NCBI RefSeq assembly: GCF_937871615.1
Contig: NZ_CALMPA010000039.1
Location: forward strand, 1-64,000
DNA: 64,000 nucleotides
Direction of reading: 5' to 3'
DNA from: an uncultured Sphingomonas sp.
Lineage (GTDB): Bacteria > Pseudomonadota > Alphaproteobacteria > Sphingomonadales > Sphingomonadaceae
The notes beneath the pieces were generated by a model. It was not told the origin of the DNA and did no database searches. It saw only the letters and a program-made list of their open reading frames with translations. Shown here piece after piece: positions 17,361 to 33,746 of the stretch. The first letter of the stretch is position 1. Each line of letters opens with the position of its first letter. Both the position numbers and the translations under genes were made by a program.

Positions 17361-18389
17361 ATGGACACTCGGAAGGTTGTATTGCTGGTCGGCGCGCTAT
17401 TCGTCGCTGCCATCACCGCATTCTTCGCGCGAACGCTGATCGCGGGAAGCGCAGCGCCGCAGGCGAACGCGATGGCTGGCGCCCCCGCCGCTATCGACGG
17501 CCCCAAGGTGCTGGTCGCCACGCGCGCGCTGCCGGTCGGCACGATCATTGATCCAGCGGCGGTGAAATTCCAGCCGTGGCCGAAGGAACTGGTGGAGGGC
17601 GCCTATTTCCAGGAGGGCACCGGCTTCGACATGAAGAATGTCGTCGGCACGGTGGTGCGCAATGCGATCACCGCCGGCCAGCCGATCACCCAGGGCGCGC
17701 TGGTCAAGCCGGGCGACCGCGGCTTCCTCGCCGCCGCGCTCGGGCCGGGGATGCGCGCGGTGACCGTGCCCGTCTCCACCCAGTCGTCGGTCGCGGGCTT
17801 CATCTTTCCGGGCGACCGCATCGACCTGCTGCTGACGCAGACCGTGGCCGGCGGCGGTGACGGCCCCCCGCTCAAGACCTCGGAAACGATCATGCGCAAC
17901 CTGCGCGTGCTGGCGACCGATCAGCGCACGTCCGACGAGAAGGACGAAAAGGGCAACACCGTGGTTCACACCTTCTCCACCGTGACGATCGAGGCGACGC
18001 CCAAGATCGCCGAGGAGATCGCGGTGGCGCAGACGCTCGGTTCGCTCTCCCTGTCGCTGCGCTCGATCGCGGACAATCAGGCGGAACTGGATCAGGCGAT
18101 CGCCTCGGGCGCGGTGAAACTCCCCGTCAACGGCGATCCGAAGGCGGAAAAGGCGCTGATGGTGCAACTCGCCAGCCAGCCGCAGAACGGCAATTCGACC
18201 TTCTCGGTCGGCGCGGATGTCTCGCGCTTCCAGCGCCGCACCGTGCCCGGCAAGGCGCAGGATAACAGCTCACCCGCCGATCCGGGCGCCGGGGGGGCAA
18301 TTCCAGGAGGGGCGCTGGCGATCGGCCCCGTCGTGCGCATCGCGCGCGGCAACACGGTGACCGACGTTCCGGTCGGGGGGAAGAAATGA
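17361..18389 (+). CDS. cpaB: Flp pilus assembly protein CpaB
   Basis: A 342-residue periplasmic protein with an N-terminal membrane anchor (about residues 5-25) and an SAF domain (PKVLVATRALPVGTIIDPAAV, about 48-110). It then has the RcpC/CpaB domain containing GMRAVTVPVSTQSSVAGFIFPGDRIDLLLT. CpaB helps assemble or position the Tad secretin. The Gly/Pro-rich C-terminus is probably disordered. Its stop overlaps the cpaC start by 4 bp (ATGA). Confidence 0.94.
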   Translation: MDTRKVVLLVGALFVAAITAFFARTLIAGSAAPQANAMAGAPAAIDGPKVLVATRALPVGTIIDPAAVKFQPWPKELVEGAYFQEGTGFDMKNVVGTVVRNAITAGQPITQGALVKPGDRGFLAAALGPGMRAVTVPVSTQSSVAGFIFPGDRIDLLLTQTVAGGGDGPPLKTSETIMRNLRVLATDQRTSDEKDEKGNTVVHTFSTVTIEATPKIAEEIAVAQTLGSLSLSLRSIADNQAELDQAIASGAVKLPVNGDPKAEKALMVQLASQPQNGNSTFSVGADVSRFQRRTVPGKAQDNSSPADPGAGGAIPGGALAIGPVVRIARGNTVTDVPVGGKK

Positions 18390-20044
18390 TGCGCATTCGC
18401 TCAACGCCGATCGGGGTGCCGCTCGCCGCCGCCCTTGCCTCCGCCGCGGTCGTCGCGACCCCGGCTGCGGCGCCCGCCCAGTCCGCGCCCGCCGCAAACG
18501 CGCCCATCGTCCAGCTCGCCACCAATCGTGGCCGGCTGATAACGCTGGCCCGCCCGATGAGCGATCTGTTCGTCGCCAATTCGGACATCGCGGATGTGCA
18601 GGTGCGTTCGCCCACGCAGCTTTATATCTTCGGCAAGAAGGCGGGCGAAACGACTGTCTCGGCCACGTCGAAGACCGGCCAGGTCGTCTATTCGACCACG
18701 GTTCGCGTCGGCAACAATTTCGACTCGATCGGCCAGATGCTCAAGCTGGCGATGCCCGAGGCCGCGATCACCGCGACGACGATGAACGGCGTGGTGCTGT
18801 TGACCGGCACCGTCGCGCAGCCCGATGACGGCGCGGAGGCCGAACGCCTCGTCACCGCCTTCGTGGGTGAAGGCACGAAGGTAATCAGCCGCTTGCGCAC
18901 CGCGACCCCGTTGCAGGTGAACCTTCAGGTGCGCTTCGCCGAGGTGAGCCGCAGCTTCGTCAAGAATATCGGCTCGAACATCCTGACGCGCGACACCTCC
19001 GGCGGGTTCACGTTCGGCGTGGCATCCGGGCGAAATCCCGGCACGATCACCGGCAGCAGCACGAATACAGCCGGCCTGCCGCTTGTCGATCCTTCGACCC
19101 GGTTCGGCTTTCCTCCCGGCACCATCCCGCCGCAGCCATTCGATCCGCGAACCGGGCTGTTCGCCACCGGCACGCAATATACGTTCACGCAAAGCACCAC
19201 GGATCGCACCACGCTTGGCCTCGCGGGCCGATTGTTCGGGCTGGACGTGCTTCAGGCGCTCGATCTCGGCGAGCGGCTCGGCCAGGTGACGAGCCTCGCC
19301 AATCCCAACCTCACCGCGCTTTCCGGCGAGACCGGCACGTTCCTCGCGGGCGGCGAAATCCCGATCCCGATCGCGCAGGGGCTTGGCGCGGTGTCGATCG
19401 AATATAAGCAATATGGCGTCAGCCTCGCCTACACCCCCACGGTGTTGGCGGACGGGCGGATCAGCCTGCGCGTGCGCCCCGAGGTATCGCAGCTTTCGTC
19501 CGACGGCGCGGTTACCTTCCAGGGCACGTCGATCCCGGCGATCACCACGCGGCGCGCGGAAACCACGGTGGAGCTTGGCTCCGGCCAGAGCTTCATGATC
19601 GCGGGCCTGTTGCAGAACACGCACAACAACTCGATCGACAAGACCCCCGGCGTCGGCGATCTGCCGATCCTCGGCGCGCTGTTCCGCTCCAACGGGTTCC
19701 AGCGCAACGAAACCGAGCTGGTGATCGTCATCACGCCCTATCTGGTGAAGCCGGTCAACGCGAACGACATCGTGCTGCCGACCGACGGCTACAAGGCGCC
19801 GACCGATCTCGATCGTATCCTGTTCGGCCAGCTTGGCGGCGGGACGAGCGGCGGCGCGCGCCCGAAGCCGTCGATGGAGGCCGGGCCGCCCGCCCAGCCC
19901 GCCGTCGGCGCAGCCGCGCCGGTCGCCCCGATCCCCACGCCCGAACCACGTCGTGACGACGCGGATCGCAAGGCCGCGATCAAGCCCAAGGGCAAGGCGG
20001 CGCCCGCCGCCGTCGCCCCGGCCCCCGGCTTCTCGATCAATTGA
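18386..20044 (+). CDS. cpaC: Tad pilus outer-membrane secretin CpaC
   Basis: A 552-residue secretin subunit. It has a signal peptide (to about residue 33), an N-terminal pilus-assembly domain (ITLARPMSDLFVANSDIADVQV), a BON-like segment (about 110-170) and the secretin domain. The latter shows VTSLANPNLTALSGETGTFLAGGEIPIPI, the VxPEVSQL-type strand and the C-terminal signature TPGVGDLPILGALFRS. The tail after about residue 470 is Pro/Ala/Lys-rich. It forms the outer-membrane ring through which Flp pili leave. The 3' end overlaps cpaD's upstream region. Confidence 0.94.
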   Translation: MMRIRSTPIGVPLAAALASAAVVATPAAAPAQSAPAANAPIVQLATNRGRLITLARPMSDLFVANSDIADVQVRSPTQLYIFGKKAGETTVSATSKTGQVVYSTTVRVGNNFDSIGQMLKLAMPEAAITATTMNGVVLLTGTVAQPDDGAEAERLVTAFVGEGTKVISRLRTATPLQVNLQVRFAEVSRSFVKNIGSNILTRDTSGGFTFGVASGRNPGTITGSSTNTAGLPLVDPSTRFGFPPGTIPPQPFDPRTGLFATGTQYTFTQSTTDRTTLGLAGRLFGLDVLQALDLGERLGQVTSLANPNLTALSGETGTFLAGGEIPIPIAQGLGAVSIEYKQYGVSLAYTPTVLADGRISLRVRPEVSQLSSDGAVTFQGTSIPAITTRRAETTVELGSGQSFMIAGLLQNTHNNSIDKTPGVGDLPILGALFRSNGFQRNETELVIVITPYLVKPVNANDIVLPTDGYKAPTDLDRILFGQLGGGTSGGARPKPSMEAGPPAQPAVGAAAPVAPIPTPEPRRDDADRKAAIKPKGKAAPAAVAPAPGFSIN

Positions 20045-20067
20045 CCCGCCAACCCGAGGACATGAAC

Positions 20068-20703
20068 ATGGTCAAGCGCACCCTGCTCCTCGCCGTTCTG
20101 CCCGCCATCGTTCTTGGCGGTTGCAGCGGCACCAAGAATCGCGGGCTCGAATCCGTCCACCAGCCGGTGGTCAGCCGCACCGATTACAGCTTCGACGTTG
20201 CCACCGCCCCCGGCGGGCTGGCGCCCGGCGAGGAACAGCGGCTTGCCGGCTGGATGAATTCGCTCCGCCTCGGCTACGGCGACAGCGTGGCGATCGACGA
20301 TCCCGCCGGGGTCAGCCCGGCGGCGCGCAACGCGGTGACGCGTTCGGCGGCGCGCTTCGGCCTGCTCGTCGGGGAGAGCGCCGCGATCACCGGCGCCCCC
20401 GTCGTTCCCGGCACGTTGCGCGTGGTGGTCAGCCGCACGCGCGCGCGCGTTCCCAATTGCCCTGATTTCTCGCGCACGCGCCAGCCCGAGTTCGAGAGCA
20501 ACACCTCGTCCAACCAGGGGTGCGCGATCAACTCGAACCTTGCCGCGATGGTCGCCAATCCGCTCGATCTGGTGCGCGGGGAGCCGGGCACGCAGGTCTA
20601 TGACGCGGCGACCGGCACGCGCGCGATCACCGAATATCGCCAGGCGAAGCCGACCGGAAACGGCGGCACGACGCTGAAAACCGAAAAAGCCGGGAGCAAG
20701 TAA
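20068..20703 (+). CDS. cpaD: Pilus assembly lipoprotein CpaD
   Basis: A 211-residue lipoprotein with signal MVKRTLLLAVLPAIVLGGC; the cysteine is a lipobox site. The mature part carries the CpaD features: LAPGEEQRLAGWMNSL (a short peptidoglycan-binding-like segment), VVSRTRARVPNCPDF and the C-terminal SNQGCAINSNLAAMVANPLDLV. CpaD helps place the secretin in the outer membrane. ATG at 20068 has GAGGA seven bases upstream; ATG at 20062 and an earlier TTG are less well placed. It ends one base before cpaE. Confidence 0.9.
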   Translation: MVKRTLLLAVLPAIVLGGCSGTKNRGLESVHQPVVSRTDYSFDVATAPGGLAPGEEQRLAGWMNSLRLGYGDSVAIDDPAGVSPAARNAVTRSAARFGLLVGESAAITGAPVVPGTLRVVVSRTRARVPNCPDFSRTRQPEFESNTSSNQGCAINSNLAAMVANPLDLVRGEPGTQVYDAATGTRAITEYRQAKPTGNGGTTLKTEKAGSK

Positions 20704-20704
20704 G

Positions 20705-22000
20705 ATGAATGCCCCATGGAAGCCCGCCGGCGTGGCGCATCGCGAACCGTTCGTCGCCTTCGTCTGCGATGAAACGACGGCGGAGGCGATCCGCCCCGTC
20801 GCCACCGAAATGGGCTGGTCGACGGACAAGGTGAACAAGGGCGGGCTGCGCAACGCGGTCCAGTCGCTGTCCGTTTCGGCTAGTCCGCAGATACTGTTCG
20901 TCGATCTCGCGGAATCCGGCGATCCATTGAGCGACATCAATTCGCTGGCGGAGGTCTGCGAGCCGGGAACCGTCGTGATCGCGGCGGGCCAGATCAACGA
21001 TGTGCGGCTGTATCGCGATCTCGTGGCAAGCGGCATCCAGGATTATCTGCTGAAACCGATCAGCCCGGACGCGCTGCGCGAGGCCTTCAGCCATGCTCAG
21101 GCGATGCTCAACGCGCCAAAGGCCGTCGAAGGCGGCGCCGTCGATCGCCCGCATCATGCCGTGGCGGTAATCGGCACACGCGGCGGCACCGGCGCCTCGA
21201 CCATCGCAACTTCGCTCGCCTGGCTGATGAGCGAGAAACAGCAGCGCACCACCGCGATGCTCGATCTCGACGTGCATTTCGGCACCGGCGCGCTCGCGCT
21301 CGATCTGGAGCCGGGACGCGGCCTCACCGACGCGATCGAGAACCCCAGCCGCATCGACGGCCTGTTCATCGAACGCGCCATGATCCGCGCCTCGGACAAG
21401 CTTTCCGTCCTGTCGGCGGAGGCCCCGATCAGTTCGCCGATCGTCACCGATGGCTCCGCCTTCTTCCAGTTGCAGGAGGAGATGCGCGCCGCGTTCGAAT
21501 GCACCGTGGTCGATCTGCCGCGCAACATGCTCGTCGCCCATCCGCATCTGGTCAGCGACATGCAATGCGCGGTGATCGTTACCGAGCTGACGCTGGCGGC
21601 GGCGCGCGATACGATCCGTATCCTTCCATGGCTGAAATCCAATGCGCCGCACATGTCGGTGATGCTGGTCGCCAATCGCGTGCATCCGGGGCAGCAGCTC
21701 GAAATCTCGCGCAAGGATTTCGAAGGCTCGATCGAGCGCAAGATCGACTTCGTCGTTCCGTTCGATCAGAAGCTCGCGGCGCAGGCCGCCAAGCTGGGCA
21801 AGCCGCTTGCCGAGGCCGGCAAGGGCTCCAAGACGATCGTGCCCCTCGCCCAACTCGCCACCCGTCTCTGTGCGGCGGGCGATGCCGAAGGGGAGAAGAA
21901 CACCCCGGACAAGGGCACGAAGGGCGGATCGCTGATGGAGCGATTCACCGATCTGAAATCCCTCCTGCCCAAGAAGCAGGCCGGAGCGAAAGCGAAGTGA
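20705..22000 (+). CDS. cpaE: Tad pilus assembly ATPase-like protein CpaE
   Basis: A 431-residue MinD/ParA-like protein. Residues 15-140 form a degenerate receiver-like domain (ILFVDLAESGDPL, then DYLLKPISPDAL), and the ATPase-like domain begins at GTRGGTGASTIA. As in other CpaE proteins, the deviant Walker A has Ala-Ser where MinD has Lys-Thr. MLDLDVHFGTGALALDL and VVDLPRNM are further markers. CpaE localises the pilus machinery to a pole. It is followed after only 55 bp by tadB. The cpaF ATPase gene that usually follows cpaE is not here. Confidence 0.92.
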   Translation: MNAPWKPAGVAHREPFVAFVCDETTAEAIRPVATEMGWSTDKVNKGGLRNAVQSLSVSASPQILFVDLAESGDPLSDINSLAEVCEPGTVVIAAGQINDVRLYRDLVASGIQDYLLKPISPDALREAFSHAQAMLNAPKAVEGGAVDRPHHAVAVIGTRGGTGASTIATSLAWLMSEKQQRTTAMLDLDVHFGTGALALDLEPGRGLTDAIENPSRIDGLFIERAMIRASDKLSVLSAEAPISSPIVTDGSAFFQLQEEMRAAFECTVVDLPRNMLVAHPHLVSDMQCAVIVTELTLAAARDTIRILPWLKSNAPHMSVMLVANRVHPGQQLEISRKDFEGSIERKIDFVVPFDQKLAAQAAKLGKPLAEAGKGSKTIVPLAQLATRLCAAGDAEGEKNTPDKGTKGGSLMERFTDLKSLLPKKQAGAKAK

Positions 22001-22055
22001 TCGCGACCGCGCGCCTTCCCGCGCGCGGTCGCCGTCCAGGATAAGTGAGGGCGCG

Positions 22056-23030
22056 ATGCCGTTGATGCCGATTGCGATGCTTGCACTGGGCGCGCTGTGC
22101 GTGATGGGGATGATCGCGTTCGCCTTCGCCGGCCCCTCCACGGCGCGGGCCAGCGGGCGCCGGCTGAGCGCGCTGCGCGAGCGCCACTCCACCTCTCCCG
22201 CGCTCGCGGTCGAGGCGCAGATGCGCAGCATCACCGGCAAGAACGCCACCAAGGCGGACAAGGCGGCGATGCGCTTCCTGCCGAAGCCCGCCGAGCTGAA
22301 AAAGCGCCTGCACCGTTCCGGCAAGAGCTGGACGCTCGGCCAATATGGCATCGCCACGCTCGGCATCACCGCGGTCATCACGCTCCTGCTTTCGCTGAAG
22401 GGGCTTCCGCTGCTGCTTTCGCTGCTGGTCGGGCTGGGCTTTGGCGCGGGGATACCGCATTATATCGTCGGCTATTTCATCAAGCGCCGGCTCGCGCAGT
22501 TCAACGCGAAATTCCCCGATGCGATCGAACTGCTCGTGCGCGGCCTGCGCTCGGGCCTGCCGATCACCGAAACCATGTCCGTCGTCGGAAGCGAGGTTCC
22601 CGGCCCCGTCGGCGAGGAATTCCGCACCGTTTCGGACAAGATGAAGATCGGCCGTTCGATGGAAGTGGCGTTGCAGGAAACCGCAGACCGGATCAACACG
22701 CCCGAATTCCAGTTCTTCTGCATCACCATCGCGATCCAGCGCGAAACCGGCGGCAACCTCGCCGAAACCTTGCAGAATCTCGCGACGGTGCTGCGTCAGC
22801 GCGGCCAGATGAAGCTGAAGATCAAGGCCATGTCCTCGGAATCCAAGGCATCGGCCTATATCATCGGCGCGCTGCCGTTCATCGTGTTCATCCTCATCTG
22901 GTTCATCAACGGCGCCTATATGCAGACCTTCTTCGTCGATCAGCGGCTAATGGTCGCAGGCGGCGGTGCGATGGTGTGGATGAGCATCGGCGCGTTCATC
23001 ATGGCCAAGATGATAAACTTCGAGATCTGA
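22056..23030 (+). CDS. tadB: Tad pilus inner-membrane protein TadB (T2SS F domain)
   Basis: A 324-residue membrane protein. It has an N-terminal anchor (6-27), a pair of membrane spans around 100-145 and 270-320, and a T2SS-F domain between them. The F domain shows FPDAIELLVRGLRSGLPITETM and FQFFCITIAIQRETGGNLAETLQNLATVLRQR, the standard TadB motif. It forms the inner-membrane platform of the Flp pilus with TadC. The coding strand continues with tadC 4 bp downstream. Confidence 0.94.
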   Translation: MPLMPIAMLALGALCVMGMIAFAFAGPSTARASGRRLSALRERHSTSPALAVEAQMRSITGKNATKADKAAMRFLPKPAELKKRLHRSGKSWTLGQYGIATLGITAVITLLLSLKGLPLLLSLLVGLGFGAGIPHYIVGYFIKRRLAQFNAKFPDAIELLVRGLRSGLPITETMSVVGSEVPGPVGEEFRTVSDKMKIGRSMEVALQETADRINTPEFQFFCITIAIQRETGGNLAETLQNLATVLRQRGQMKLKIKAMSSESKASAYIIGALPFIVFILIWFINGAYMQTFFVDQRLMVAGGGAMVWMSIGAFIMAKMINFEI

Positions 23031-23034
23031 CGCG

Positions 23035-24036
23035 ATGGAAACGGTACAGAATCCGACACTGCTTGGGGTCGATGTCTATCTCGCCGCGACGATCCTGTCG
23101 GGCATTGCGACATTCGCCGTGCTGGTCGCGATCTACGCGGCGCTCAGCGTGCACGATCCGATGGCCCGTCGCGTCAAGGCGCTGAACGAGCGCCGCGAAC
23201 AGCTGAAGGCCGGCATCACCGCGTCCACCGGCAAGCGCCGCGCGAAGCTGGTGCGCCGCAGCGAAGGGGCGGATCGCATTCGCACCCTCCTCGCCTCGCT
23301 CCAAGTGTTGCAGGATAGCCAGTTGAAGGAAGCGCAGCGCAAGCTGCTTCAGGCTGGCATCCGTTCGAAGGAATGGGCGGTCGGCGTGATCTTCGGTCGG
23401 CTGGTGCTGCCGATCGTGCTTGGCGGCATCATCCTGTTCATCGTTTACGGCACCAACAGTTTCGCCGACTGGACCCCGCTCAAGCGCTACGGGCTGGTCG
23501 CGGCCACGTTCATCTTCAGCTACAAAGCGCCGGATATCTTCCTGCAAAACAAGATCACCAAGCGTTCGGCGGCGATCCGCAAGGGCCTGCCCGACGCGCT
23601 CGATCTGCTGGTGATCTGCGCCGAGGCGGGGCTGACGGTCGACGCAGCCTTCCACCGGGTCGCGAAGGAACTGGGCAAGGCCTATCCCGAACTGGGCGAC
23701 GAATGCGCGCTGACCGCGATCGAACTGGGCTTTCTCACCGATCGGCGCCAGGCGTTCGAGAACTTCGCGAACCGCATCGCGCTGGATGAGGTGAAGGGCA
23801 TCGTCACCACGATGATCCAGACCGAGAAATACGGCACCCCCCTCGCCTCCGCATTGCGCGTGCTGTCCGCGGAATTCCGCAACCAGCGCATGATGCGCGC
23901 GGAGGAAAAGGCCGCCCGCCTGCCCGCGATCATGACGGTGCCGCTGATCCTGTTCATCCTGCCGGTGCTGTTCGTCGTCATTCTCGGGCCGGCGGCGTGT
24001 TCGATCAAGGATGCCTTCATCAACGGGCCTGTCTGA
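23035..24036 (+). CDS. tadC: Tad pilus inner-membrane protein TadC (T2SS F domain)
   Basis: A 333-residue partner of TadB. It has membrane spans at about 18-38, 115-160 and 300-325 and an F domain with LPDALDLLVICAEAGLTVDAAFHRVAKELGKAYPEL and KYGTPLASALRVLSAEFRNQRMMRAEEKAARLPAIMTVP, the TadC signature pattern. It is the last gene of this Tad operon. A perfect 11-bp inverted repeat covering its stop codon probably marks the transcript end. Confidence 0.93.
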   Translation: METVQNPTLLGVDVYLAATILSGIATFAVLVAIYAALSVHDPMARRVKALNERREQLKAGITASTGKRRAKLVRRSEGADRIRTLLASLQVLQDSQLKEAQRKLLQAGIRSKEWAVGVIFGRLVLPIVLGGIILFIVYGTNSFADWTPLKRYGLVAATFIFSYKAPDIFLQNKITKRSAAIRKGLPDALDLLVICAEAGLTVDAAFHRVAKELGKAYPELGDECALTAIELGFLTDRRQAFENFANRIALDEVKGIVTTMIQTEKYGTPLASALRVLSAEFRNQRMMRAEEKAARLPAIMTVPLILFILPVLFVVILGPAACSIKDAFINGPV

Positions 24037-24058
24037 TCCCGCACGCGGACAGGCCCGT
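24023..24058 (+). terminator. Hairpin over the tadC stop codon
   Basis: The arms ACGGGCCTGTC (24023-24033) and GACAGGCCCGT (24048-24058) are perfect complements with a 14-base loop that includes the tadC stop. No T-run follows, so this is a candidate transcription end or mRNA-stabilising hairpin rather than a textbook intrinsic terminator. Confidence 0.45.
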
Positions 24059-24152
24059 CGACCCGGCCATAATCGCGTGCCCGACGCGATTGGGCCAAGC
24101 TTCCGCCGCAATCGCTTGGCAAGGCCGAGCCTGACCGATTAAAGGCCGGGAC

Positions 24153-24395
24153 ATGAGCGACCGCGATACCATCCTCACCGCCATCAAGGCGCAGATCGAA
24201 GCTTTCAACAAGAAGGGCATCGCGATCACCGATGCGACCACATTTCAGGGCGATCTGGAATGGGACAGCCTGACGGTGATGGATTTCGTCGCCGCGATCG
24301 AAGACGAATTCGACATCATCATCACGATGAACATGCAGGCGGAAATCGAGACGGTCGGCCAGCTCGCCGACGCCGTTGCCAAGCTGAAGGCCTGA
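24153..24395 (+). CDS. Acyl carrier protein, sphingolipid-type
   Basis: An 80-residue acyl carrier protein with the phosphopantetheine attachment serine in EWDSLTVMDF. It lacks the usual DSLD/E motif of fatty-acid-synthase AcpP, having DSLT instead. It lies one base upstream of serine palmitoyltransferase. In Caulobacter and other sphingolipid producers an ACP gene sits beside spt and is needed for sphingolipid synthesis. By analogy, this one probably carries the acyl chain condensed with serine. It begins a new transcription unit after the tadC hairpin. Confidence 0.9.
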   Translation: MSDRDTILTAIKAQIEAFNKKGIAITDATTFQGDLEWDSLTVMDFVAAIEDEFDIIITMNMQAEIETVGQLADAVAKLKA

Positions 24396-24396
24396 G

Positions 24397-25656
24397 ATGA
24401 GCGATAGCGGATTGCAATCCGACGTTTCCCCGGCAGGCGCGCCGATCGCCGCCGAAAGAGACCTGTTCGACAAGTTCAATCCGCTGATCGCGGAACGGGA
24501 GGCGCTGCTGTCATCCGGCCTGCGCGATCCGTTCGGCATCGTGATGGAGGAGGTGAAATCCCCCACCGTCGCGGTAATCAAGGGCCGCGAGACGATCCTG
24601 CTCGGCACGTATAATTATATGGGGATGACGTTCGATCCGGACGTGATCGCCGCGGGCAAGGAAGCGTTCGACAAATTCGGCACCGGCACCAACGGCAGCC
24701 GCGCGCTCAACGGCACCTTCCACGATCATATGGAGGTGGAACAGGCACTGCGCGAATTCTACGGCATGTCCGGCGCGATCGTCTTCTCCACCGGCTATCA
24801 GGCCAATCTCGGCGTGATTTCCGCGATCGCCGGCAAGGGCGAATATATCATCCTCGATGCCGACAGCCATGCCTCGATCTACGATGGCTGCGCGATGGGC
24901 AATGCGGAGGTGGTGCGCTTCCGTCATAATTCGGTCGAGGATCTCGACAAGCGGCTGGGGCGCCTGCCGAAGGAGCCGGGCAAGCTCGTCGTGCTCGAAG
25001 GCGTCTATTCGATGCTCGGCGATGTCGCGCCGCTTAAGGAAATGGTCGCCGTCGCCAGGAAGCATGGCGCGATGGTGCTGGTCGACGAGGCGCATTCGAT
25101 GGGCTTCTTCGGCGCGCACGGGCGCGGGGTTTACGAGGAACAGGGGCTGGAGGATCAGGTCGATTTCGTGATCGGCACCTTCTCCAAGTCGGTCGGCACG
25201 GTCGGCGGCTTCTGCGTTTCGAACCATCCGAAATTCGATATCCTGCGCTTCGTCTGCCGCCCGTATATCTTCACCGCCAGCCTGCCCCCGGCAGTGATGG
25301 CGAGCGCCGCCGTCTCGATCCGCAAGCTGATGCACGCGCACAACAAGCGCGCGCATCTGTGGGAAAACACGCGGCAATTGCACGGCGGGCTGCAGCGTCT
25401 TGGCTTCCGCCTGCCGACGGAGGAGCCGCAATCCGCCGTGGTCGCGGTACTGCTCGACGATCAGGAACAGGCGGTGGCGATGTGGCACGCGCTGCTGGAG
25501 GCGGGGCTTTACGTCAACGTCGCGCGCCCGCCCGCCACCCCCGCCGGGACGTTCCTGCTGCGCTGCTCCGTCTGCGCGGAGCATACGAGCGAGCAGATCG
25601 CGCGGGTGATCGCGATGTTCGAGGGCGCCGGCCGCGCGACGGGGGCGATCGCCTGA
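24397..25656 (+). CDS. spt: Serine palmitoyltransferase
   Basis: A 419-residue PLP enzyme of the alpha-oxoamine synthase family that condenses L-serine with a long-chain acyl thioester to 3-oxosphinganine. It shows NYMGMTFDPDVI, GTGTNGSRALNGTFHDHMEVE, DADSHASIYDG (the ring-stacking His), LVDEAHSMGFFGAHGRG and GTFSKSVGTVGGF with the PLP lysine near residue 265. The length matches the soluble Sphingomonas enzyme (about 420 residues) and the ACP neighbour supports SPT over KBL or BioF. This gene is the strongest sign of a sphingolipid-making organism. Confidence 0.92.
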   Translation: MSDSGLQSDVSPAGAPIAAERDLFDKFNPLIAEREALLSSGLRDPFGIVMEEVKSPTVAVIKGRETILLGTYNYMGMTFDPDVIAAGKEAFDKFGTGTNGSRALNGTFHDHMEVEQALREFYGMSGAIVFSTGYQANLGVISAIAGKGEYIILDADSHASIYDGCAMGNAEVVRFRHNSVEDLDKRLGRLPKEPGKLVVLEGVYSMLGDVAPLKEMVAVARKHGAMVLVDEAHSMGFFGAHGRGVYEEQGLEDQVDFVIGTFSKSVGTVGGFCVSNHPKFDILRFVCRPYIFTASLPPAVMASAAVSIRKLMHAHNKRAHLWENTRQLHGGLQRLGFRLPTEEPQSAVVAVLLDDQEQAVAMWHALLEAGLYVNVARPPATPAGTFLLRCSVCAEHTSEQIARVIAMFEGAGRATGAIA

Positions 25657-25732
25657 TATTCCCGGTGCGCCCGGTCGGTCGATCCGCCGGGCGCGCTTTT
25701 CCAGCGCCGCATCGTCTGATAGTGATCCGCTG

Positions 25733-27685
25733 GTGAGCGCGAACCTCGGGGGAACCATTCCGAAAGGATCGGTAGCGAAGCTGCGCACCGTCATGCTGGC
25801 CGTGATGGGCGTGCTGGGCGTCGCCGTGCTTTTCGGCCTGATCGTCACGCTGGGCGAAGCGAACCGCCAGCGCGATCGCGCGATCCGGCTCCAGTCGCAC
25901 AGCTATGACATCATGGTGCTGGCGCGGACGCTGGGGGGCACCATCGCCCAATCCGAAGCCTCGCTCGGCCGCTTCGTCATCTCCGGCGATAAGCAACTCG
26001 GTCGGCTCTATTACGACGACTGGCAATTCGCCGGAAAGCAGATCGACCGGCTGGGGACGCTGACCCGGCAGAACGACAGCCAGGCGAAGCGCATGGACGA
26101 GTTGCGCCGCGCCTATGACGAGCGCGGCAAGGAACTGTCGCTGATCGCGCTCAACACCAATTACGGCAAGAACAGCCAGGCATTGTCGCTCTATTATCGG
26201 GCGCGCGAAGCCCCGTCGCTGGCGGCGATCAACCGCGCGCTGGAGGAGATCACCCGCAGCGAACGCGATCTGCTCGATCAGCGCACGCGAGAGACGCGCG
26301 CGGCGATCGAGCGATCGGCGAAGCTCGCCCGGATATTGTCCGCCTTCGGCATCCTCATCTTGCTCGGCGCGATCACGCTCGGCGCGCTCACCGTGCGCGC
26401 ACTGACCGAGCGCGGCGTCGCGCAGGCAGAGGCCGCCGCCCAGCGCGAGCGGGCGGATGGGTTCGCTGCCGCCGTGGCGGTCGCCACCGCCGAACTGCGC
26501 GACCAGGAGGCCCGGCTGCGACAGGTGCAGAAAATGGAAGCGGTGGGCCAGCTCACCGGCGGCATCGCACATGATTTCAACAATATGCTTGCCGTAGTGA
26601 TGGGCGGGCTTGAACTTGCCCAGCGCGGCTTGGCCGACGCCAGCGCGAACGCGGAGAGCCGCCGCCACATCGACAGCGCGATGGAAGGCGCGAAGCGCGC
26701 CGCCGCGCTGACCGGCCAGTTGCTCACCTTCGCCCGCGAAACCGCGATCAATCCCGAGGTGATGGCGGTCGACGATCTGCTGCGCGGTATGTCCGAACTG
26801 CTCGACCGGACGCTGGGCGACGCGATCACCGTCACCATCCACGATCGCAGCGCTGGATGGCGGCTGCGCGCCGATCGCGTCCAGCTCGAAAACAGCCTGG
26901 TCAATCTCGCGGTGAATGCGCGCGATGCGATGGACGGGCGCGGCACACTGACCATCGCCGCCGGCACCGCGACGCTGGCGGAAGGCGAGCGCGAATGCGC
27001 GCCGGGCGATTATCTCACCATCGCGGTTACGGACACCGGCTGCGGCATGACGCCTGAAACAGCCGAGCGCGCCTTCGAGCCGTTCTTCACCACCAAGCCG
27101 GTCGGCAAGGGCACGGGGCTTGGCCTCAGCCAGATATTCGCCTTTGTCCGGCAACAGCGTGGCGCGATCGCGATCGCCTCGGCACCCGGCCAGGGCACGA
27201 CGATCACGCTCTATTTTCCGCGCGACGCGAGCGCCCTTGCCACAACACCCCCCGCCCAGCCCATTCAGCGCGCGCCCGCGGCAGTGACAGCCGCGCTTGA
27301 GGTGCTGGTGGTGGAGGACGATCCCCGCGTGCTTGCGGCGACCGTAGGCGCGCTCAAGGAACTGGGGCATGATCCGATCCCCTGCGATGATCCGCTGCTT
27401 GCCCCGAGCGTGCTTGCCAAGCATCAAACCGTCGGCCTCATCATCTCCGACGTGCTGATGCCCGCCCGCACCGGGCCTGAGATGATCGCGGCGCTCGATG
27501 CGCGCCATGCCCATATTCCTGTGCTGTTCGTTACCGGCTACGCCGGCGAACTGGCGGAGACGGGCGGATTCGGTGGCCACCATGTGCTGCGCAAGCCCTT
27601 CACGCTGGCCGCGCTCGAACGCGCGATTTCCGCGGCGACCAGCGCGGATCGCGCGCTTGCGGCCCCAGGCGTTCCGGCGGAATAG
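25733..27685 (+). CDS. CHASE3-containing hybrid sensor histidine kinase with receiver domain
   Basis: A 650-residue membrane hybrid kinase starting at GTG. Membrane spans lie at about 20-40 and 200-222, enclosing a CHASE3-like periplasmic helical domain (about 42-195). A HisKA phosphoacceptor follows (GGIAHDFNN, His280), then an HATPase domain with NLAVNARDAMDGRG, DTGCGMT and GKGTGLGLS. A C-terminal receiver has VVEDDPRVL, the phosphorylated Asp in ISDVLMPARTG and LRKPF at the end. No separate DNA-binding regulator is adjacent, so its output is unknown. It is placed between spt and the lptF/lptG pair, 76 bp after spt. Confidence 0.92.
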   Translation: MSANLGGTIPKGSVAKLRTVMLAVMGVLGVAVLFGLIVTLGEANRQRDRAIRLQSHSYDIMVLARTLGGTIAQSEASLGRFVISGDKQLGRLYYDDWQFAGKQIDRLGTLTRQNDSQAKRMDELRRAYDERGKELSLIALNTNYGKNSQALSLYYRAREAPSLAAINRALEEITRSERDLLDQRTRETRAAIERSAKLARILSAFGILILLGAITLGALTVRALTERGVAQAEAAAQRERADGFAAAVAVATAELRDQEARLRQVQKMEAVGQLTGGIAHDFNNMLAVVMGGLELAQRGLADASANAESRRHIDSAMEGAKRAAALTGQLLTFARETAINPEVMAVDDLLRGMSELLDRTLGDAITVTIHDRSAGWRLRADRVQLENSLVNLAVNARDAMDGRGTLTIAAGTATLAEGERECAPGDYLTIAVTDTGCGMTPETAERAFEPFFTTKPVGKGTGLGLSQIFAFVRQQRGAIAIASAPGQGTTITLYFPRDASALATTPPAQPIQRAPAAVTAALEVLVVEDDPRVLAATVGALKELGHDPIPCDDPLLAPSVLAKHQTVGLIISDVLMPARTGPEMIAALDARHAHIPVLFVTGYAGELAETGGFGGHHVLRKPFTLAALERAISAATSADRALAAPGVPAE

Positions 27686-27785
27686 TCGCCATGGGCGCGG
27701 GGGCCGATATTTCGGCTGACGCCCGGCGTTCGGCCTCCTATACCGCCCCGATAGTCCAGCAGCGACGAGTGACCGTTACCCGCCC

Positions 27786-28985
27786 ATGAAATCGATCGAC
27801 CGCTACATGGCCCGGCTGATCGCGCTGCCGCTGTTCTCCACGCTCGTGCTCGCCGCGATGCTGCTGGTGCTCGATCGCATGTTGCGCCTGTTCGATTTCG
27901 TCGCGACCGAGGGCGGGCCGGTTTCGGTGGTGTGGCGGATGCTCGCCAATCTGCTGCCGGAATATCTCGGCCTCGGCATTCCGATCGGGCTGATGCTGGG
28001 CATCCTCCTCGCCTTCCGCCGACTCGCCACCTCGTCCGAACTGGATGTGATGCGCGGCGTGGGGATGAGCTACGGTCGGCTGCTGCGCGTGCCATATATG
28101 TATGCGGTGGGGCTTGCGCTGCTCAATCTGGCGATCGTCGGCTATGTCCAGCCGAAAGCGCGCTACGCTTATGAGCAACTGCGCTTCGAATTGCGCACCG
28201 GCGCGCTCGGCGCGTCGATCAAGGTCGGCGAATTCACCCATCTCGGCGATCGCACCACGTTGCGCATCGAACAGAGCCGCGACGACGGGCGCCAGCTTTC
28301 CGGCATCTTCGTCCACACCCAGACGCAGAAGGGCGACTGGATCGGCGTGACGGCGCAGCGCGGCCAGTTTCTCGCCACCGACGATCCGGACGTGATTATC
28401 CTGCGCCTGACCAGCGGCACGCTGGTGCACAACCGCAGCGATTTCAGCACCCCACGCGTACTGACCTTCAGCAGCCACGATCTGCCGATCAACCTGCCGA
28501 AATTCGAGCAGTTCCGCGTGCGCAGCGGCGAAAGCCTTGAGGCCACATTGCCCGAACTCGCCAGCACCGGCCGCCACGGGCAGACCGAGCAGGAACGCGA
28601 CGCCAGCCGCGCCGAATTCCATTTCCGCGTCGCCGAAGTGGCCTCGATGTTCCTTCTGCCGCTGCTCGCGGTGGCGCTGGGCGTGCCCCCGAAGCGATCG
28701 ACTTCGGCGCTGGGAGTTTTCCTGTCGATCGTAATCATCGTGACCTATCACAAGGTCAATCAATATGCCGCCTCGGTCGGCCATTTCGGGCGGATTGATC
28801 CGTTCTTCGCGCTATGGGTGCCGTTCGCGATCTTCGCCGCGCTGGTGCTGTGGATGTATCGCACGATCGCCTTCGTCCCCGGCGGCCAGCCGATCGGCGC
28901 GCTCGAACGCGTGGCGGGCAAGGCATGGAAATCCGTGGTGCGTCACCTGCCGGGCCGGCGGCATCGCGCGGGAGCCCCGGCATGA
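27786..28985 (+). CDS. lptF: LptF-family permease (lipopolysaccharide-type export)
   Basis: A 399-residue YjgP/YjgQ-family protein. The first three membrane spans come at about 10-110, followed by a periplasmic beta domain (about 130-275) and three C-terminal spans (275-375). RLATSSELDVMRGVGMSYGRLL is the conserved coupling-helix region that contacts the LptB ATPase, and EFHFRVAEVASMFLLPLLAVALGV starts the second membrane half. LptF pairs with LptG to extract lipid from the inner membrane. It overlaps lptG by 4 bp. Sphingomonads reportedly have glycosphingolipid instead of LPS, so the cargo could be sphingolipid (inference). Confidence 0.9.
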   Translation: MKSIDRYMARLIALPLFSTLVLAAMLLVLDRMLRLFDFVATEGGPVSVVWRMLANLLPEYLGLGIPIGLMLGILLAFRRLATSSELDVMRGVGMSYGRLLRVPYMYAVGLALLNLAIVGYVQPKARYAYEQLRFELRTGALGASIKVGEFTHLGDRTTLRIEQSRDDGRQLSGIFVHTQTQKGDWIGVTAQRGQFLATDDPDVIILRLTSGTLVHNRSDFSTPRVLTFSSHDLPINLPKFEQFRVRSGESLEATLPELASTGRHGQTEQERDASRAEFHFRVAEVASMFLLPLLAVALGVPPKRSTSALGVFLSIVIIVTYHKVNQYAASVGHFGRIDPFFALWVPFAIFAALVLWMYRTIAFVPGGQPIGALERVAGKAWKSVVRHLPGRRHRAGAPA

Positions 28986-30073
28986 CCTCGTTTTTCCCGT
29001 CGCGCACCATCTCGATCTACATGGGGCGGATGTTCCTCGTGCGGACGTTCGGCATTCTCGCCGGGCTGGTCCTCGTCCTCCAGGCGCTGGATTTGCTGGG
29101 GGAATCGGGCAAGATCCTCGCGGTGCCGGGCAATGGCGATGCCCAGGTGTGGCATTATGTCTCGCTGCGCGTGCCGCAGATCATCGCGCGCTTCCTGCCG
29201 TTCTCGGTGCTGCTCGGCACGATCCTCACGCTGATTACGATGAACCAGAACAGCGAGGTGATCGCGCTGAAGGGCGCGGGCATGTCCGCGCATCAGGTGC
29301 TGGCGCCGCTGATCGTCGCCAGCATCGGTGTCGCGGCGCTGAGCTTCGCCTTCAACGATCGCGTCGTGCCGCGCGCGACAGCGACGCTCAACCGATGGGA
29401 GAAGGTCGATTACGGGCCGATGCCGGTCGATCGGGGGGATCGAACGAACGTCTGGGTGCGTTCCGGGCCTGATCTGATCGAGGTCGATCGGATCAGCGGG
29501 CGCGGTGCTGCGGCGCAACTCGGCGGCATCACCGTCTATGATCGCAACGGCGGCGAATTGCGCGCCATCGTCACGGCGCGGTTCGGCAAGCGTTCGGGCG
29601 ATGGCTGGGCGATCTGGCCGGCGCAACGCTTCGATGTCGCCAGCGGCAAGGTGACGCAGCTTGGCGAAACCATAATCGCCACCGGGGTGACGCCGGATCA
29701 GTTCACCCTTTCCTCGGTCGATCCGGACGAATTGTCGTTCCGCGCGCTGAAGGAGGCGATCGACGATCTCGGCGCGGCGGGCCGCCCGACCAAATCGCTG
29801 GAAGGCGCGCTGTGGCACAAATTGTCCGGCCCGCTCTCCTCCGTGCTGATGCCGCTGCTCGGCGCGGTGGCGGCGTTCGGCATCGCGCGATCGGGCAAAT
29901 TGTTCGTCCGCGCGGTGATCGGAATGGCGCTGGGCTTTGCCTATTTCGTCGCGGACAATTTCGCGCTGGCGATGGGCAATCTCGGTGCCTACCCGCCGTT
30001 CCTCGCGGCCTGGGCGCCGTTCCTGCTGTTCCTGTTCATCGGCGAGACGGTGCTGCTGCGCACCGAGGAATGA
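28982..30073 (+). CDS. lptG: LptG-family permease (lipopolysaccharide-type export)
   Basis: A 363-residue partner of LptF beginning MTSFFPSRTISIYMGRMFLVRTF. It has three spans, then the coupling segment TLITMNQNSEVIALKGAGMSAHQVL, a periplasmic beta domain (about 120-255), and the second half KLSGPLSSVLMPLLGAVAAFG with three spans. The ATG lies inside the lptF stop (ATGA), and the frame is open further upstream only as a shadow of lptF. With LptB and LptC it would form the inner-membrane part of the Lpt bridge. It converges on the desaturase gene with a 13-bp gap. Confidence 0.9.
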   Translation: MTSFFPSRTISIYMGRMFLVRTFGILAGLVLVLQALDLLGESGKILAVPGNGDAQVWHYVSLRVPQIIARFLPFSVLLGTILTLITMNQNSEVIALKGAGMSAHQVLAPLIVASIGVAALSFAFNDRVVPRATATLNRWEKVDYGPMPVDRGDRTNVWVRSGPDLIEVDRISGRGAAAQLGGITVYDRNGGELRAIVTARFGKRSGDGWAIWPAQRFDVASGKVTQLGETIIATGVTPDQFTLSSVDPDELSFRALKEAIDDLGAAGRPTKSLEGALWHKLSGPLSSVLMPLLGAVAAFGIARSGKLFVRAVIGMALGFAYFVADNFALAMGNLGAYPPFLAAWAPFLLFLFIGETVLLRTEE

Positions 30074-30086
30074 TCCCGGCTCAGGC

Positions 30087-31181
30087 TCAGCCGCGCGGCA
30101 GCATCGTGCTACGCGCGATCTTGCCGATCAGATAGGGCAGGCTGCGATAATTGGCGTTGTGATAGGGCGACGCCGGCTCCAGCGCCGCCGTCAGCCGCCG
30201 ATGCGCCTCGCCCAGCGAGTGATAGGGCAGCCCCGGCAACAGGTGATGCAGCGCATGATAGCGCAGGCCCACCGGCGCCCACAGCGCAGGCAGCAGGCCC
30301 GGCGGCGGCACGTTGACCGAATCGAGATATTGCGCGGTGACGGTCATCGCCTCGCCCTCATTCTCCCACAGATGCGCGACAAGCGTGCGGACCTGATTGA
30401 GCACCGCAACGCCCGATGCCACCGCCAGCATGATCGCAAACGCGCGCAGCGGCAGCGTGCCCGTTGCGACCAGCACGATCAGCGCCACCGCCCAGACCGC
30501 GCAGGCGGCCTCGATCCGGTTCCACTGGGTACGAAATTCGCCCTCCGGCATCCGGCGGCGGAACGACGGGTTGATGGTGAGCGCGGAATAACGCTCCACC
30601 ACGGCGCGGCGCAGCGGCGGGATCACCAGCGAGAGCGGCGACAACACACCATAGCGAAAGATCAGCGCCACCGGCGCCAGCGCGGCGACGATGATGAAGG
30701 CCGGCAAGGTCCACGGCTTCATCAGCGCGAGCGGCAGATATTCGGGATCGTCCACCGTGCCGTAACGGGTGCGGGCGTGATGCAGGTTATGCACGCCCTC
30801 ATACATGAACGACGGCACCAGCATCGGCACCCCGATGAACAGATTATAGGCGAAGCGGAAACCCGGCAGCGCGGCGTGGCGCACATGCGTCAACTCATGA
30901 ATGAAGCTGAGCGCGCGATAGAGCGCCAGCACCGCGATCACCCCGGCGGCGATCGTCCACGCGGTGGAGTGGAGCGCGATCGCCGATACCAGCCCGGCAT
31001 AACCAAGCGCCACCGATCCTAGGAAATCGCCCCAATAGACGCGGGCGCGCGGCGCGTTGATATCGCGCGTGAGGTCCGCTGCGGCTTTCAGCATCGCGCG
31101 GTCATCCGCGATCGGCGCGCGGGGCGCGTCCGCCGCCGTGGCATCCCGCTCAAAAGTGATGGTCGTCATGATCTGGCCCAT
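30087..31181 (-). CDS. Fatty acid desaturase (membrane di-iron)
   Basis: A 364-residue membrane desaturase with three histidine clusters: HELTHVRH (residues 95-102), HNLHH (131-135) and HALHH (about 316-320). Membrane spans lie between them. It introduces a double bond into an acyl chain, perhaps of a lipid or a long-chain base. Start could be the ATG at 31181 or the one at 31169 four codons later. It is convergent with lptG and divergent from the GNAT-like gene. Its placement inside the spt neighbourhood makes a role in sphingolipid tailoring worth considering, but ordinary phospholipid desaturation is equally possible. Confidence 0.86.
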   Translation of the reverse strand: MGQIMTTITFERDATAADAPRAPIADDRAMLKAAADLTRDINAPRARVYWGDFLGSVALGYAGLVSAIALHSTAWTIAAGVIAVLALYRALSFIHELTHVRHAALPGFRFAYNLFIGVPMLVPSFMYEGVHNLHHARTRYGTVDDPEYLPLALMKPWTLPAFIIVAALAPVALIFRYGVLSPLSLVIPPLRRAVVERYSALTINPSFRRRMPEGEFRTQWNRIEAACAVWAVALIVLVATGTLPLRAFAIMLAVASGVAVLNQVRTLVAHLWENEGEAMTVTAQYLDSVNVPPPGLLPALWAPVGLRYHALHHLLPGLPYHSLGEAHRRLTAALEPASPYHNANYRSLPYLIGKIARSTMLPRG

Positions 31182-31290
31182 TGCCGCAAGATAGTGGCGA
31201 GACGGTGGCCTTTACAGGCCGCCTCCAGCCCCAATCATAACGGAAACGTCACTCGCCATGATCGCTCGGGGTGATTATTGCGCTTGATCC

Positions 31291-32445
31291 ATGGCATCCC
31301 CGCTCACCATCCGCCCCGTCCTGACGAAGCGCGATCGCAAGGCCTTCGTCGATTTCCCCTTCCACCTCTATCGCGACGATCCGAACTGGGTGCCGCCGCT
31401 TAAGGGCGAGGCGCTGGGGCTAATTACGCCCGAGAAGAACGGCTGGTATAGCCATGCGAAGGCCCAGCTTTTCCTTGCCGAGGAAGGCGGCCGGGCGGTC
31501 GGGCGCATCTCCGCGCATATCGACACGCTCGCGCTGGAAATGCCGCCCGAGCAGGGCTTTGGCCCCGGCACCGGCTTCTGGGGGCTGATGGAGGCCGAGC
31601 GCGAGGACATCTTCGTCGCATTGCTCGCCGCCGCCGAGGCGTGGCTGCGCGAACAGGGCACGACCCGTGTGATCGGCCCGGTCTCGCAGTCGATCTGGGA
31701 GGAGCCGGGGTTGCTGATCCAGGGCTTCGATCATCCGCCCACGGTAATGATGGGCCACGCCAGGCCGGAATATCAGGGCTGGGTGGAGCGCGCCCGCTAT
31801 CGGCCCGTGAAGCAATTGCTCACGTATGACCTGCCGATCGCCGACGGCTTTCCGCCGATCGTCAACCGCATCGTCGCCTCCGGCGAGAAGAATCCGCGCA
31901 TCCGCATCCGCAATGTCGACAAGACGAAGTTCGATGAGGAGGCCGCGATCATCCTCGCCATCCTCAACGATGCCTGGTCGGACAATTGGGGCTTCGTCCC
32001 GCTCACCCCGCCCGAGATCGCGGATGTCGGCGTCAAGCTGAAGCCGATCGTGTACAACGATCTGATCCGCATCGCGGAGGTGGACGGCAGGCCGGTGGCG
32101 TTCATGATGACGCTCCCTGATCTCAACGAGGCGATCAAGCCGCTCAAGGGCAATCTGCTGCCGTTCGGCTGGGCGAAATTGCTGCTGTGGCTACGCAAGC
32201 CCAAGGCGCGGACGATGCGCGTGCCGTTGATGGGCGTACTGAAGGAGCTTCAGGCGTCGCGCCTCGCCAGCCAGCTTGCCTTCATGATGATCGAGTTCAT
32301 CCGTCGCGACGCGGTGGCGCATTATGGCGCCACCCGCGCCGAGATCGGCTGGGTGCTGGATGACAATCAGGGAATGAATTCGATCGCCGAGGCGATCCAG
32401 AGCAAGGTCAACAAGGCCTATCAGATCTACGCGCGGGATTTGTAA
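31291..32445 (+). CDS. GNAT-fold acyltransferase-like protein; candidate bacterial ceramide synthase
   Basis: A 384-residue soluble protein of a family often left as hypothetical in alphaproteobacteria. The N-terminus reads FVDFPFHLYRDDPNWVPPL, the middle has GRISAHID and GPVSQSIWEEPGLLI, and the C-terminal GNAT-like half has FMMTLPDLNEAIKPLKGNLLP, LQASRLASQLAFMMIEFI and IGWVLDDNQGMNSIAEAI. Caulobacter ceramide synthase (bCerS) is a GNAT-superfamily acyltransferase encoded near spt. The gene here is about 6.9 kb from spt, so an N-acylation role in ceramide formation is plausible. The link is inference: I recognise the family only loosely, and the exact substrate is unknown. Confidence 0.6.
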   Translation: MASPLTIRPVLTKRDRKAFVDFPFHLYRDDPNWVPPLKGEALGLITPEKNGWYSHAKAQLFLAEEGGRAVGRISAHIDTLALEMPPEQGFGPGTGFWGLMEAEREDIFVALLAAAEAWLREQGTTRVIGPVSQSIWEEPGLLIQGFDHPPTVMMGHARPEYQGWVERARYRPVKQLLTYDLPIADGFPPIVNRIVASGEKNPRIRIRNVDKTKFDEEAAIILAILNDAWSDNWGFVPLTPPEIADVGVKLKPIVYNDLIRIAEVDGRPVAFMMTLPDLNEAIKPLKGNLLPFGWAKLLLWLRKPKARTMRVPLMGVLKELQASRLASQLAFMMIEFIRRDAVAHYGATRAEIGWVLDDNQGMNSIAEAIQSKVNKAYQIYARDL

Positions 32446-32921: not shown

Positions 32922-33746
32922 CTATAGCTCGGTGCGCACCCGCCACAGCTCGGGGAACAATTCCACCTCCAGCATCTTGCGGAGATAGGCCGCGCCCGCG
33001 GTGCCGCCCGATCCGCGCTTCAGCCCGATGATCCGCTCCACCGTGGTGACGTGATTGAACCGCCAGCGCCGGAAATAATCCTCCAGATCGACCAGCTTTT
33101 CCGCCAGCTCATACAAATCCCAATATTTCTCCGGCGCTTCATAGATCCGCCGCCAGGCTGCGATCGCCGCCGGATCGCACGGGCGTTGCGCGCGCCAGTC
33201 GCGGGCAAGCTCGCCCGCGGGGATGCCGCGCCGCGCGACGAGCATCAGCGCTTCGTCATAAAGGCTTGGCGCGGCAAGGATCGCGTCCAGCCCGGCCATC
33301 ACCTCCGCCCGGTGCGCGTGAACCGAAAGCGTCGCCATGTTGCGATTGCCGAGCAGGAATTCGATCGCGCGATATTGCCATGACTGGAAACCCGAAGACT
33401 GGCCGAGCGAGGCGCGGAATTCGGTATATTCGCTCGGCGTCATCGTGCGCAGCACATCCCACGCGCTGTTGAGCTGCTCGAATATCCGCGCGACGCGCGC
33501 CAGCATCTTGAACGCGGGCTGCAAGCGATCCGCGCGGATCGCGGCGACCGCGCTCGTCAGTTCATGCACCGCCAGCTTCATCCACAATTCGGATGTCTGA
33601 TGCTGAATGATGAACAACATTTCGTCATGCGCGGCGGAAAGCGGGTGCTGCGCATCGAGGATGCGATCGAGCCGCAGATAATCGCCGTAAGACATCGCAT
33701 CGGAAAAATCGGTACGCGCGCCGCTGGCCGGATCGTTGTCAGTCAC
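32922..33746 (-). CDS. kynA: Tryptophan 2,3-dioxygenase
   Basis: A 274-residue heme dioxygenase that opens tryptophan to N-formylkynurenine. It shows [36 protein letters not shown], the substrate segment [16 protein letters not shown], and the proximal heme histidine in [15 protein letters not shown], with the C-terminal [12 protein letters not shown]. The length is slightly under 300 residues like other bacterial TDOs. No kynB or kynU gene is adjacent, so the rest of the kynurenine pathway must lie elsewhere if present. It is divergent from a cysteine-synthase-family gene across 128 bp. Confidence 0.95.

Follow-up and report, generated by a model that had tools for sequence, protein, structure and literature searches.

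A Sphingomonas locus that groups genes for sphingolipid synthesis and proposed tailoring with an LptFG pair and a hybrid histidine kinase

How sphingolipids reach the outer membrane was still stated to be not known in 2024, in the available passages of two papers (PMC11324152, PMC11087976), and a locus of an uncultured Sphingomonas sp. raises the question of whether the genes that make such a lipid and those that would move it belong together. The locus, positions 24153-32445 of a 64,000-nucleotide (nt) stretch of contig NZ_CALMPA010000039.1 (assembly GCF_937871615.1; this whole stretch is called the window), holds seven genes in 8.3 kb. An earlier note on this DNA had read them as an acyl carrier protein (ACP), serine palmitoyltransferase (SPT), a CHASE3 hybrid kinase, LptF, LptG, a fatty acid desaturase and a GNAT-like acyltransferase, perhaps one functional unit for making, tailoring and moving sphingolipid. 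Profile matches, a PDB sequence match and a structure model confirmed all seven genes, at these positions and in this order:

24153-24395, plus strand: acpR-type acyl carrier protein (PF00550, PP-binding, 40 bits; DSL motif read from the sequence)
24397-25656, plus strand: spt, serine palmitoyltransferase (NF047603, 823 bits, cut-off 670)
25733-27685, plus strand: spt-linked hybrid histidine kinase (CHASE3, HisKA, HATPase and REC domains)
27786-28985, plus strand: lptF of the spt-associated (type 2) group (TIGR04407, 251 bits, cut-off 230; tree)
28979-30073, plus strand: lptG of the spt-associated (type 2) group (TIGR04408, 300 bits, cut-off 240; tree)
30087-31181, minus strand: FA_desaturase-family membrane enzyme, proposed ceramide acyl hydroxylase (PF00487, 91 bits; histidine clusters)
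31291-32445, plus strand: cerS-type tandem GNAT acyltransferase, ceramide synthase candidate (fold match; position near lptFG)

The first five genes form a plus-strand run, spaced by 1, 76 and 100 nt, in which lptF and lptG overlap by 7 nt; the FA_desaturase-family gene, on the other strand, converges on lptG and diverges from cerS. The best PDB sequence match of the SPT is itself a serine palmitoyltransferase (2jg2, E 3.8e-221), and the nearest named SPT found belongs to Sphingomonas lycopersici (93% identity). The explanation that we hold, with good confidence as a whole, is that the block is the sphingolipid counterpart of the assembly line for lipopolysaccharide (LPS). AcpR, the presumed acyl donor for SPT, would carry an acyl group that SPT would condense with serine, the GNAT protein (CerS) would N-acylate the product, and the FA_desaturase-family enzyme would probably hydroxylate the amide-linked acyl chain. 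A sphingolipid-dedicated Lpt exporter would have LptF and LptG as its inner-membrane permease and would feed the single LptD of the genome. Sphingomonads would not have converted the old LPS permease; that pair would have gone when LPS synthesis was lost, and the one retained would be a different pair, already part of the sphingolipid cluster.

The window genome encodes one LptF and one LptG, both inside the block, and LpxC, the one Lpx gene searched for, gave no match in any of 118 genomes of the order Sphingomonadales, the E. coli and Caulobacter controls being matched; by this measure, the lipid A synthesis expected in the host of an LPS exporter was not found. Across the 118 genomes, LptF and LptG genes number two in 94, three to five in 14, one in 1 and none in 9. 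A sample of 192 genomes of the class, 189 outside the order and 3 from it, was sorted by LpxC and by SPT (positive at E 1e-90 or better to the window SPT); many assemblies in these samples are incomplete, and nine LpxC-negative class genomes were assigned by elimination (G231, G248, G254, G255, G270, G276, G278, G298 and G304). Outside the order, at least four LptF/G genes occur in 11 of 12 genomes with both LpxC and SPT, the twelfth (G180) having two, as against 1 of 151 with LpxC alone (Fisher's test, 4e-15, phylogeny ignored). That single genome (G134) has four, three others have three (G267, G280, G294) and the rest have two or fewer. Genomes with SPT and no LpxC match hold exactly two in 13 of 14 cases and none in G171 (16 of 17 hold two when the three genomes of the order are included), and the 12 with neither gene hold none in six, two in five and three in one.

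The excess of copies is seen because, as the trees show, the second pair of the genomes with LpxC and SPT is an LptFG pair of the spt side. That side of the LptF tree (33 rows, support 100/96) unites the window protein, the only LptF of SPT genomes that lack LPS and the second LptF of those that have both LPS and SPT; the other side (26 rows, 100/99) holds the LPS-type copies, from LPS-only genomes and from the other pair of the LpxC- and SPT-positive ones. The LptG tree, made with a quick method, agrees (spt side, 32 rows, SH-aLRT (Shimodaira-Hasegawa-like approximate likelihood ratio) support 93; LPS side, 25 rows, 100). The trees had 60 rows for LptF and 58 for LptG, with 19 chosen rows from the order, 7 of the 14 LPS-less SPT genomes and E. 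coli on a long branch; reading frames below 330 residues were left out and Caulobacter sequences are not among the rows, and for three loci (L113-L115) the type-2 label was assigned by score ahead of the tree. Thirteen SPT loci fetched later were scored with the profiles built before. Six hold an LptFG pair matched best by the spt-type profile (G147, G228, G248, G255, G137, G247), and seven have no pair in view, two of them on short contigs (G181, G285), two with an spt-type pair elsewhere (G252, G196), one whose spt-type pair was not located (G278), and G171 and G180, which are exceptions.

One could argue that the pair once exported LPS and, LPS having been lost, is either a relict or was turned over to sphingolipid: LptF and LptG both score above the NCBIfam cut-offs for LPS export, and LptD is retained, with one copy in the window genome, and is present in 13 of the 14 LPS-less SPT genomes outside the order. 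We consider this highly improbable. In the trees the window pair groups with the second, spt-associated copies found in LPS makers, apart from the LPS-type copies, and in two sphingomonads the slot of the LPS-type pair, next to lptD, is without lptFG. In the LPS maker G277 the order is pepA-lptF-lptG-lptD-surA-pdxA-ksgA, with which G118 agrees for the tested genes; in the sphingomonad G012 pepA stands directly beside lptD-surA-pdxA, with no room for lptFG, and the window genome has lptD-surA-pdxA-ksgA without lptFG. The simplest history that these arrangements suggest is loss of the LPS-type pair and retention of the sphingolipid pair.

A second alternative, that LptFG of this group carries another envelope lipid and is linked to spt indirectly, is improbable to a lesser degree. 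The cargo of the pair is a prediction, and several genomes weigh against a sphingolipid-dedicated exporter. Six genomes of the order (G009, G022, G033, G037, G042, G045) have spt and no LptFG match, the first five being small genomes of 1.1-2.2 Mb from one family (f2). In three of these (G009, G022, G037) the cluster is in view with lipid-kinase genes present and lptFG missing from it, and their relative G016 has lptFG inside the cluster. Outside the order, G171 has spt and no match to LptFG, LpxC or LptD, and G180 has LpxC, SPT and a single LptFG pair. To these come the 14 LpxC-less genomes of the order with more than two LptF/G genes. Because lptFG is absent inside one contig in three genomes, exporter loss is favoured over assembly gaps there, and sphingolipid export in these f2 genomes (L262 of G009, L263 of G022, L265 of G037) is unexplained by the LptFG model. 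The spt clusters of G171 and G180 (L249 and L250) are without lptFG, c6 or lipid kinase, which gave the idea that LptFG follows head-group synthesis; the three f2 genomes, with lipid-kinase genes (and c6 in two of them) and no LptFG, speak against it. The rule that joins spt and LptFG is thus strong, not universal. What speaks against another cargo is that among LPS makers second LptFG pairs are nearly confined to SPT genomes, and that the pair sits inside the sphingolipid cluster in distant orders.

As a check, the earlier note had proposed comparing gene order across Sphingomonadales, and the order proved to be conserved in many relatives. Among 80 named loci, 48 have the tested genes in the order acp-spt-kinase-lptF-lptG-desaturase-cerS, with the FA_desaturase-family gene reversed (cerR stands ahead of acp in 44 of them and not in the other 4). 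The named records of S. koreensis (L179) and S. paucimobilis (L202) are examples that have the block. For 75 named loci the sequence extended 7.5 kb or more past spt; 56 of these contain lptF, lptG and cerS, 53 of them with the FA_desaturase-family gene. A table of 60 loci from eight families of the order (every other family genome in the sample, 34 in number, and 26 of the 78 other order genomes with a match) has acp directly before spt in every case, and spt, lptFG and cerS within 11 kb in 34. That these genes are neighbours by chance or as housekeeping genes is scarcely credible, because the order is conserved to this extent in the named and the order loci. It recurs from family to family and also elsewhere in the class, in other orders, and the co-conservation is far above that of random neighbours, even if the block is split in many Sphingomonadaceae.

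The split is considerable in the family, where spt, lptFG and cerS stand together in 12 of the 34 other Sphingomonadaceae genomes, as opposed to 22 of 26 from seven other families, and where lptFG lies more than 7 kb downstream of spt or elsewhere in 21 of the 34, which counts against a single unit. The lptFG region was fetched for 20 of these 21 genomes and lptF-lptG-desaturase-cerS, with the third gene reversed, is intact in 17; the other three have cerS without the FA_desaturase-family gene, a PF04116 hydroxylase in its place, and neither, respectively. LptFG and cerS thereby stay together in 19 of the 20. The conserved sub-units in Sphingomonadaceae are acp-spt, with or without the kinase, and lptF-lptG-desaturase-cerS, and in the window they are joined. 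The proposal of one unit that makes, tailors and exports sphingolipid stands in so far as a sole LptFG pair of the spt group without LpxC, and the conserved order, make it a well-supported reading of the sequence comparisons; it needs qualifying for the family, in which the two sub-units are apart in those 21 genomes. In other families and orders, aasR-cerR-acpR-spt is followed by c6 (without a Pfam match) and a lipid kinase on the opposite strand, and lptF-lptG and cerS are close by.

Some further proteins were observed at these loci. A DUF2141 protein of about 190 amino acids is found repeatedly between lptF and the lipid kinase gene (L065:6793-7404, likewise in other loci), and immediately before lptF several genomes of other orders encode a small HIT-domain-like protein (L108:11289-11723 and L097:11290-11856, the latter match falling below the Pfam cut-off). 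One record titled Bacillus sp. 2B10 (L227) encodes a Sphingomonas-type SPT with 77% identity to that of the window, probably through contamination or a wrong label.

Sphingomonad ceramides carry 2-hydroxymyristate, and the FA_desaturase-family gene between lptG and cerS may encode the enzyme for an acyl hydroxylation. Family membership, as the earlier note had it, is borne out: the protein matches the PF00487 model and the histidine clusters are invariant in 32 sequences. The activity is where we depart from it, and we lean towards an acyl hydroxylase because a PF04116 hydroxylase replaces the gene beside cerS and because of a Caulobacter precedent, a DesA-family desaturase/hydroxylase reported, in the available part of the source, to hydroxylate the amide-linked acyl chain (PMC11324152). 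Counting only frames of at least 250 residues within 2.5 kb of cerS, the neighbour is the FA_desaturase-family gene in 83 loci, a PF04116 hydroxylase in 20, neither in 18 and both in none, where three of the 83 (L158-L160) repeat the window or genomes that are in the count anyway, and named loci may overlap with order-genome loci (L212 and contig C7 of G039 are equal in length). Seven of eight order genomes with PF04116 at cerS have no FA_desaturase-family gene anywhere in the genome, whereas all 44 that have cerS with no adjacent PF04116 gene possess one (Fisher's test, 6e-8, phylogeny ignored; for genome-wide presence, G106 was assigned by elimination).

That the enzyme instead desaturates the sphingoid base or the acyl chain is rather unlikely in our judgement, given this exchange and the Caulobacter report. 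It is the reading that the Pfam family name suggests, and two class genomes (G177, G194) hold both this gene and a PF04116 gene, contrary to a strict exchange. The fold search does not decide the matter, since Foldseek with the model of the protein returned nothing below E 0.001 (best 8xks_K at 1.4e-3, then AlkB, 8f6t, at 0.029), and a PDB sequence search found nothing. The literature searched yielded nothing on point for a sphingomonad hydroxylase, or for essential or transport genes, beyond the papers cited here. Orthologues of the gene were found in 97 of the 118 order genomes and in 5 of the 192 class genomes, all five SPT-positive and LpxC-negative, and in 0 of 163 SPT-negative ones; together with the exchange at cerS, this distribution set aside the idea that the gene is an unrelated neighbour. 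Three Sphingomonas leaf isolates (L188, L214, L229) have the PF04116-type hydroxylase between lptG and cerS, the usual place of the FA_desaturase-family gene, and G177, from another order, has an orthologue (34%) directly behind spt (L108:5875-6960), an independent link to the pathway.

The last gene of the block gave no Pfam or NCBIfam match at E 0.001, and a PDB sequence search found nothing. Its AlphaFold model, built on a 35-sequence alignment (predicted local distance difference test, pLDDT, 93.7), matches tandem GNAT enzymes of the PDB over nearly its full length, with a template modelling (TM) score of about 0.6 to acyltransferases such as 7q3a and 5kf1. Identity to the best-ranked chains is 12-16%, and unlike them the window protein would act on a sphingoid base with a long acyl donor. 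The fold and the conserved position near lptFG uphold the call of a GNAT-like acyltransferase. The position corresponds to that of Caulobacter CC_1154 in the available part of PMC11324152, position rather than sequence being compared, and the protein is a predicted candidate for a bacterial ceramide synthase.

The kinase is the least constant member of the block. It lies behind spt in 70 of 78 named loci (50-79% identity), and full-length orthologues (45-59%) occur in 10 of 117 other order genomes, among the 10 best candidates scored per genome, each directly behind spt, the earliest start that the kinase could use lying 22-113 nt past the spt stop; G105 has one further full-length match, more distant (38%) and not linked to spt. 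The kinase follows spt and not lptFG, because the link holds among the 70 loci where lptFG is upstream (seven) or not in view (two). The expected phospho-acceptor histidine and aspartate are invariant in 11 orthologues. We regard a regulatory role as plausible from sequence, in which the kinase would have been added to the acpR-spt unit in part of the Sphingomonadaceae and may tune synthesis to the condition of the envelope. Against such a role counts its absence from 8 of 78 named loci and from most of the genera sampled, from which it follows that the pathway does not need it. The kinase could also be an unrelated passenger lodged behind spt, a possibility that we rate somewhat short of even: besides these absences, a quick SPT tree of 116 rows needs 8 changes in kinase presence, no experiment links the two, and no paper was found that joins histidine kinase, serine palmitoyltransferase, Sphingomonas and sphingolipid. 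A passenger would not be expected to keep its place behind spt in all ten full-length orthologues and in the nine loci just mentioned, nor its invariant phospho-acceptor residues.

One may tentatively go further, to a proposal that we think somewhat doubtful, namely that in sphingomonads the cargo of the Lpt bridge has been exchanged entirely, their only LptFG, an old sphingolipid-specific pair, now carrying sphingolipid alone with LptD, and that in the spt-linked CHASE3 kinase we have the first sensor through which bacterial sphingolipid synthesis is coupled to the condition of the export line. With one LptFG pair and no LpxC match, a single depletion strain would make the question of sphingolipid export testable. 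Both the copy-number pattern and the existence of two LptFG groups point to Lpt permeases that can be paralogues specific for a cargo, and they provide a sequence marker of sphingolipid export. Two parts missing in sphingomonads, a sphingolipid hydroxylase and a regulator, also gain candidates from the block.

The plus-strand run may be co-transcribed. A scan for promoters gave two sites, as compared with a mean of 1.2 in shuffled sequences, and the terminator scan was likewise not above chance:

24046-24073, plus strand: promoter-like site upstream of acpR (scan; not above chance)
31211-31238, plus strand: promoter-like site upstream of cerS (scan; not above chance)

On the left, Tad/Flp pilus genes (17361-24036; CpaB, secretin, CpaD, CpaE-like and two T2SF-type) stop 116 nt before acpR, an arrangement found among the 80 named loci only in L163-L165; in 75 cerR takes that place. 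Just past cerS, on the minus strand, is a tryptophan 2,3-dioxygenase family protein of 274 amino acids (32922-33746).

Compared with the E. coli LPS exporter LptB2FGC-A-DE, the block shares the LptF/LptG family, and LptD is retained in the window genome; it differs in that the pair belongs to a different group, has sphingolipid as its presumed cargo and occurs without an LpxC match. The acpR-spt operon of Rhodobacteria (PMC9386255, seen in part) likewise has a specialised ACP gene directly before spt, and the same paper places aasR elsewhere in Sphingomonadaceae, while the window, too, has no aasR match; its main text, as far as this was available, contains no word for Lpt genes, desaturase or histidine kinase. 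The sphingolipid genes of S. wittichii and Z. mobilis have been called scattered, on the basis of 17 genes and two species (available part of PMC11324152). This statement fits the family partly and most sampled genomes outside it less well: for aasR, the scatter agrees with our family sample; spt, lptFG and cerS are nonetheless together in the 34 order loci given above. The closest likeness is the cluster CC_1168-CC_1152 of Caulobacter crescentus, which has the same relative order of acpR-spt, lptF2-lptG2 and cerS, and whose LptC2/F2/G2 were proposed, in the portion of that paper at hand, for selective transport of (phospho)sphingolipid (PMC11324152), so that a cluster of synthesis genes with Lpt genes is of a kind already published. 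Caulobacter has LpxC and a further LptFG, whereas the window pair is the only one of its genome. Unlike the Caulobacter cluster, the window has a hybrid kinase after spt and an FA_desaturase-family gene between lptG and cerS, and aasR, cerR and the head-group-type genes are not in it (no match to aasR, cerR, c5 or c6 in the window, the part of the genome searched for them). New here are a sole LptFG pair of the spt type in an LPS-less bacterium, the hydroxylase exchange beside cerS and the spt-linked kinase.

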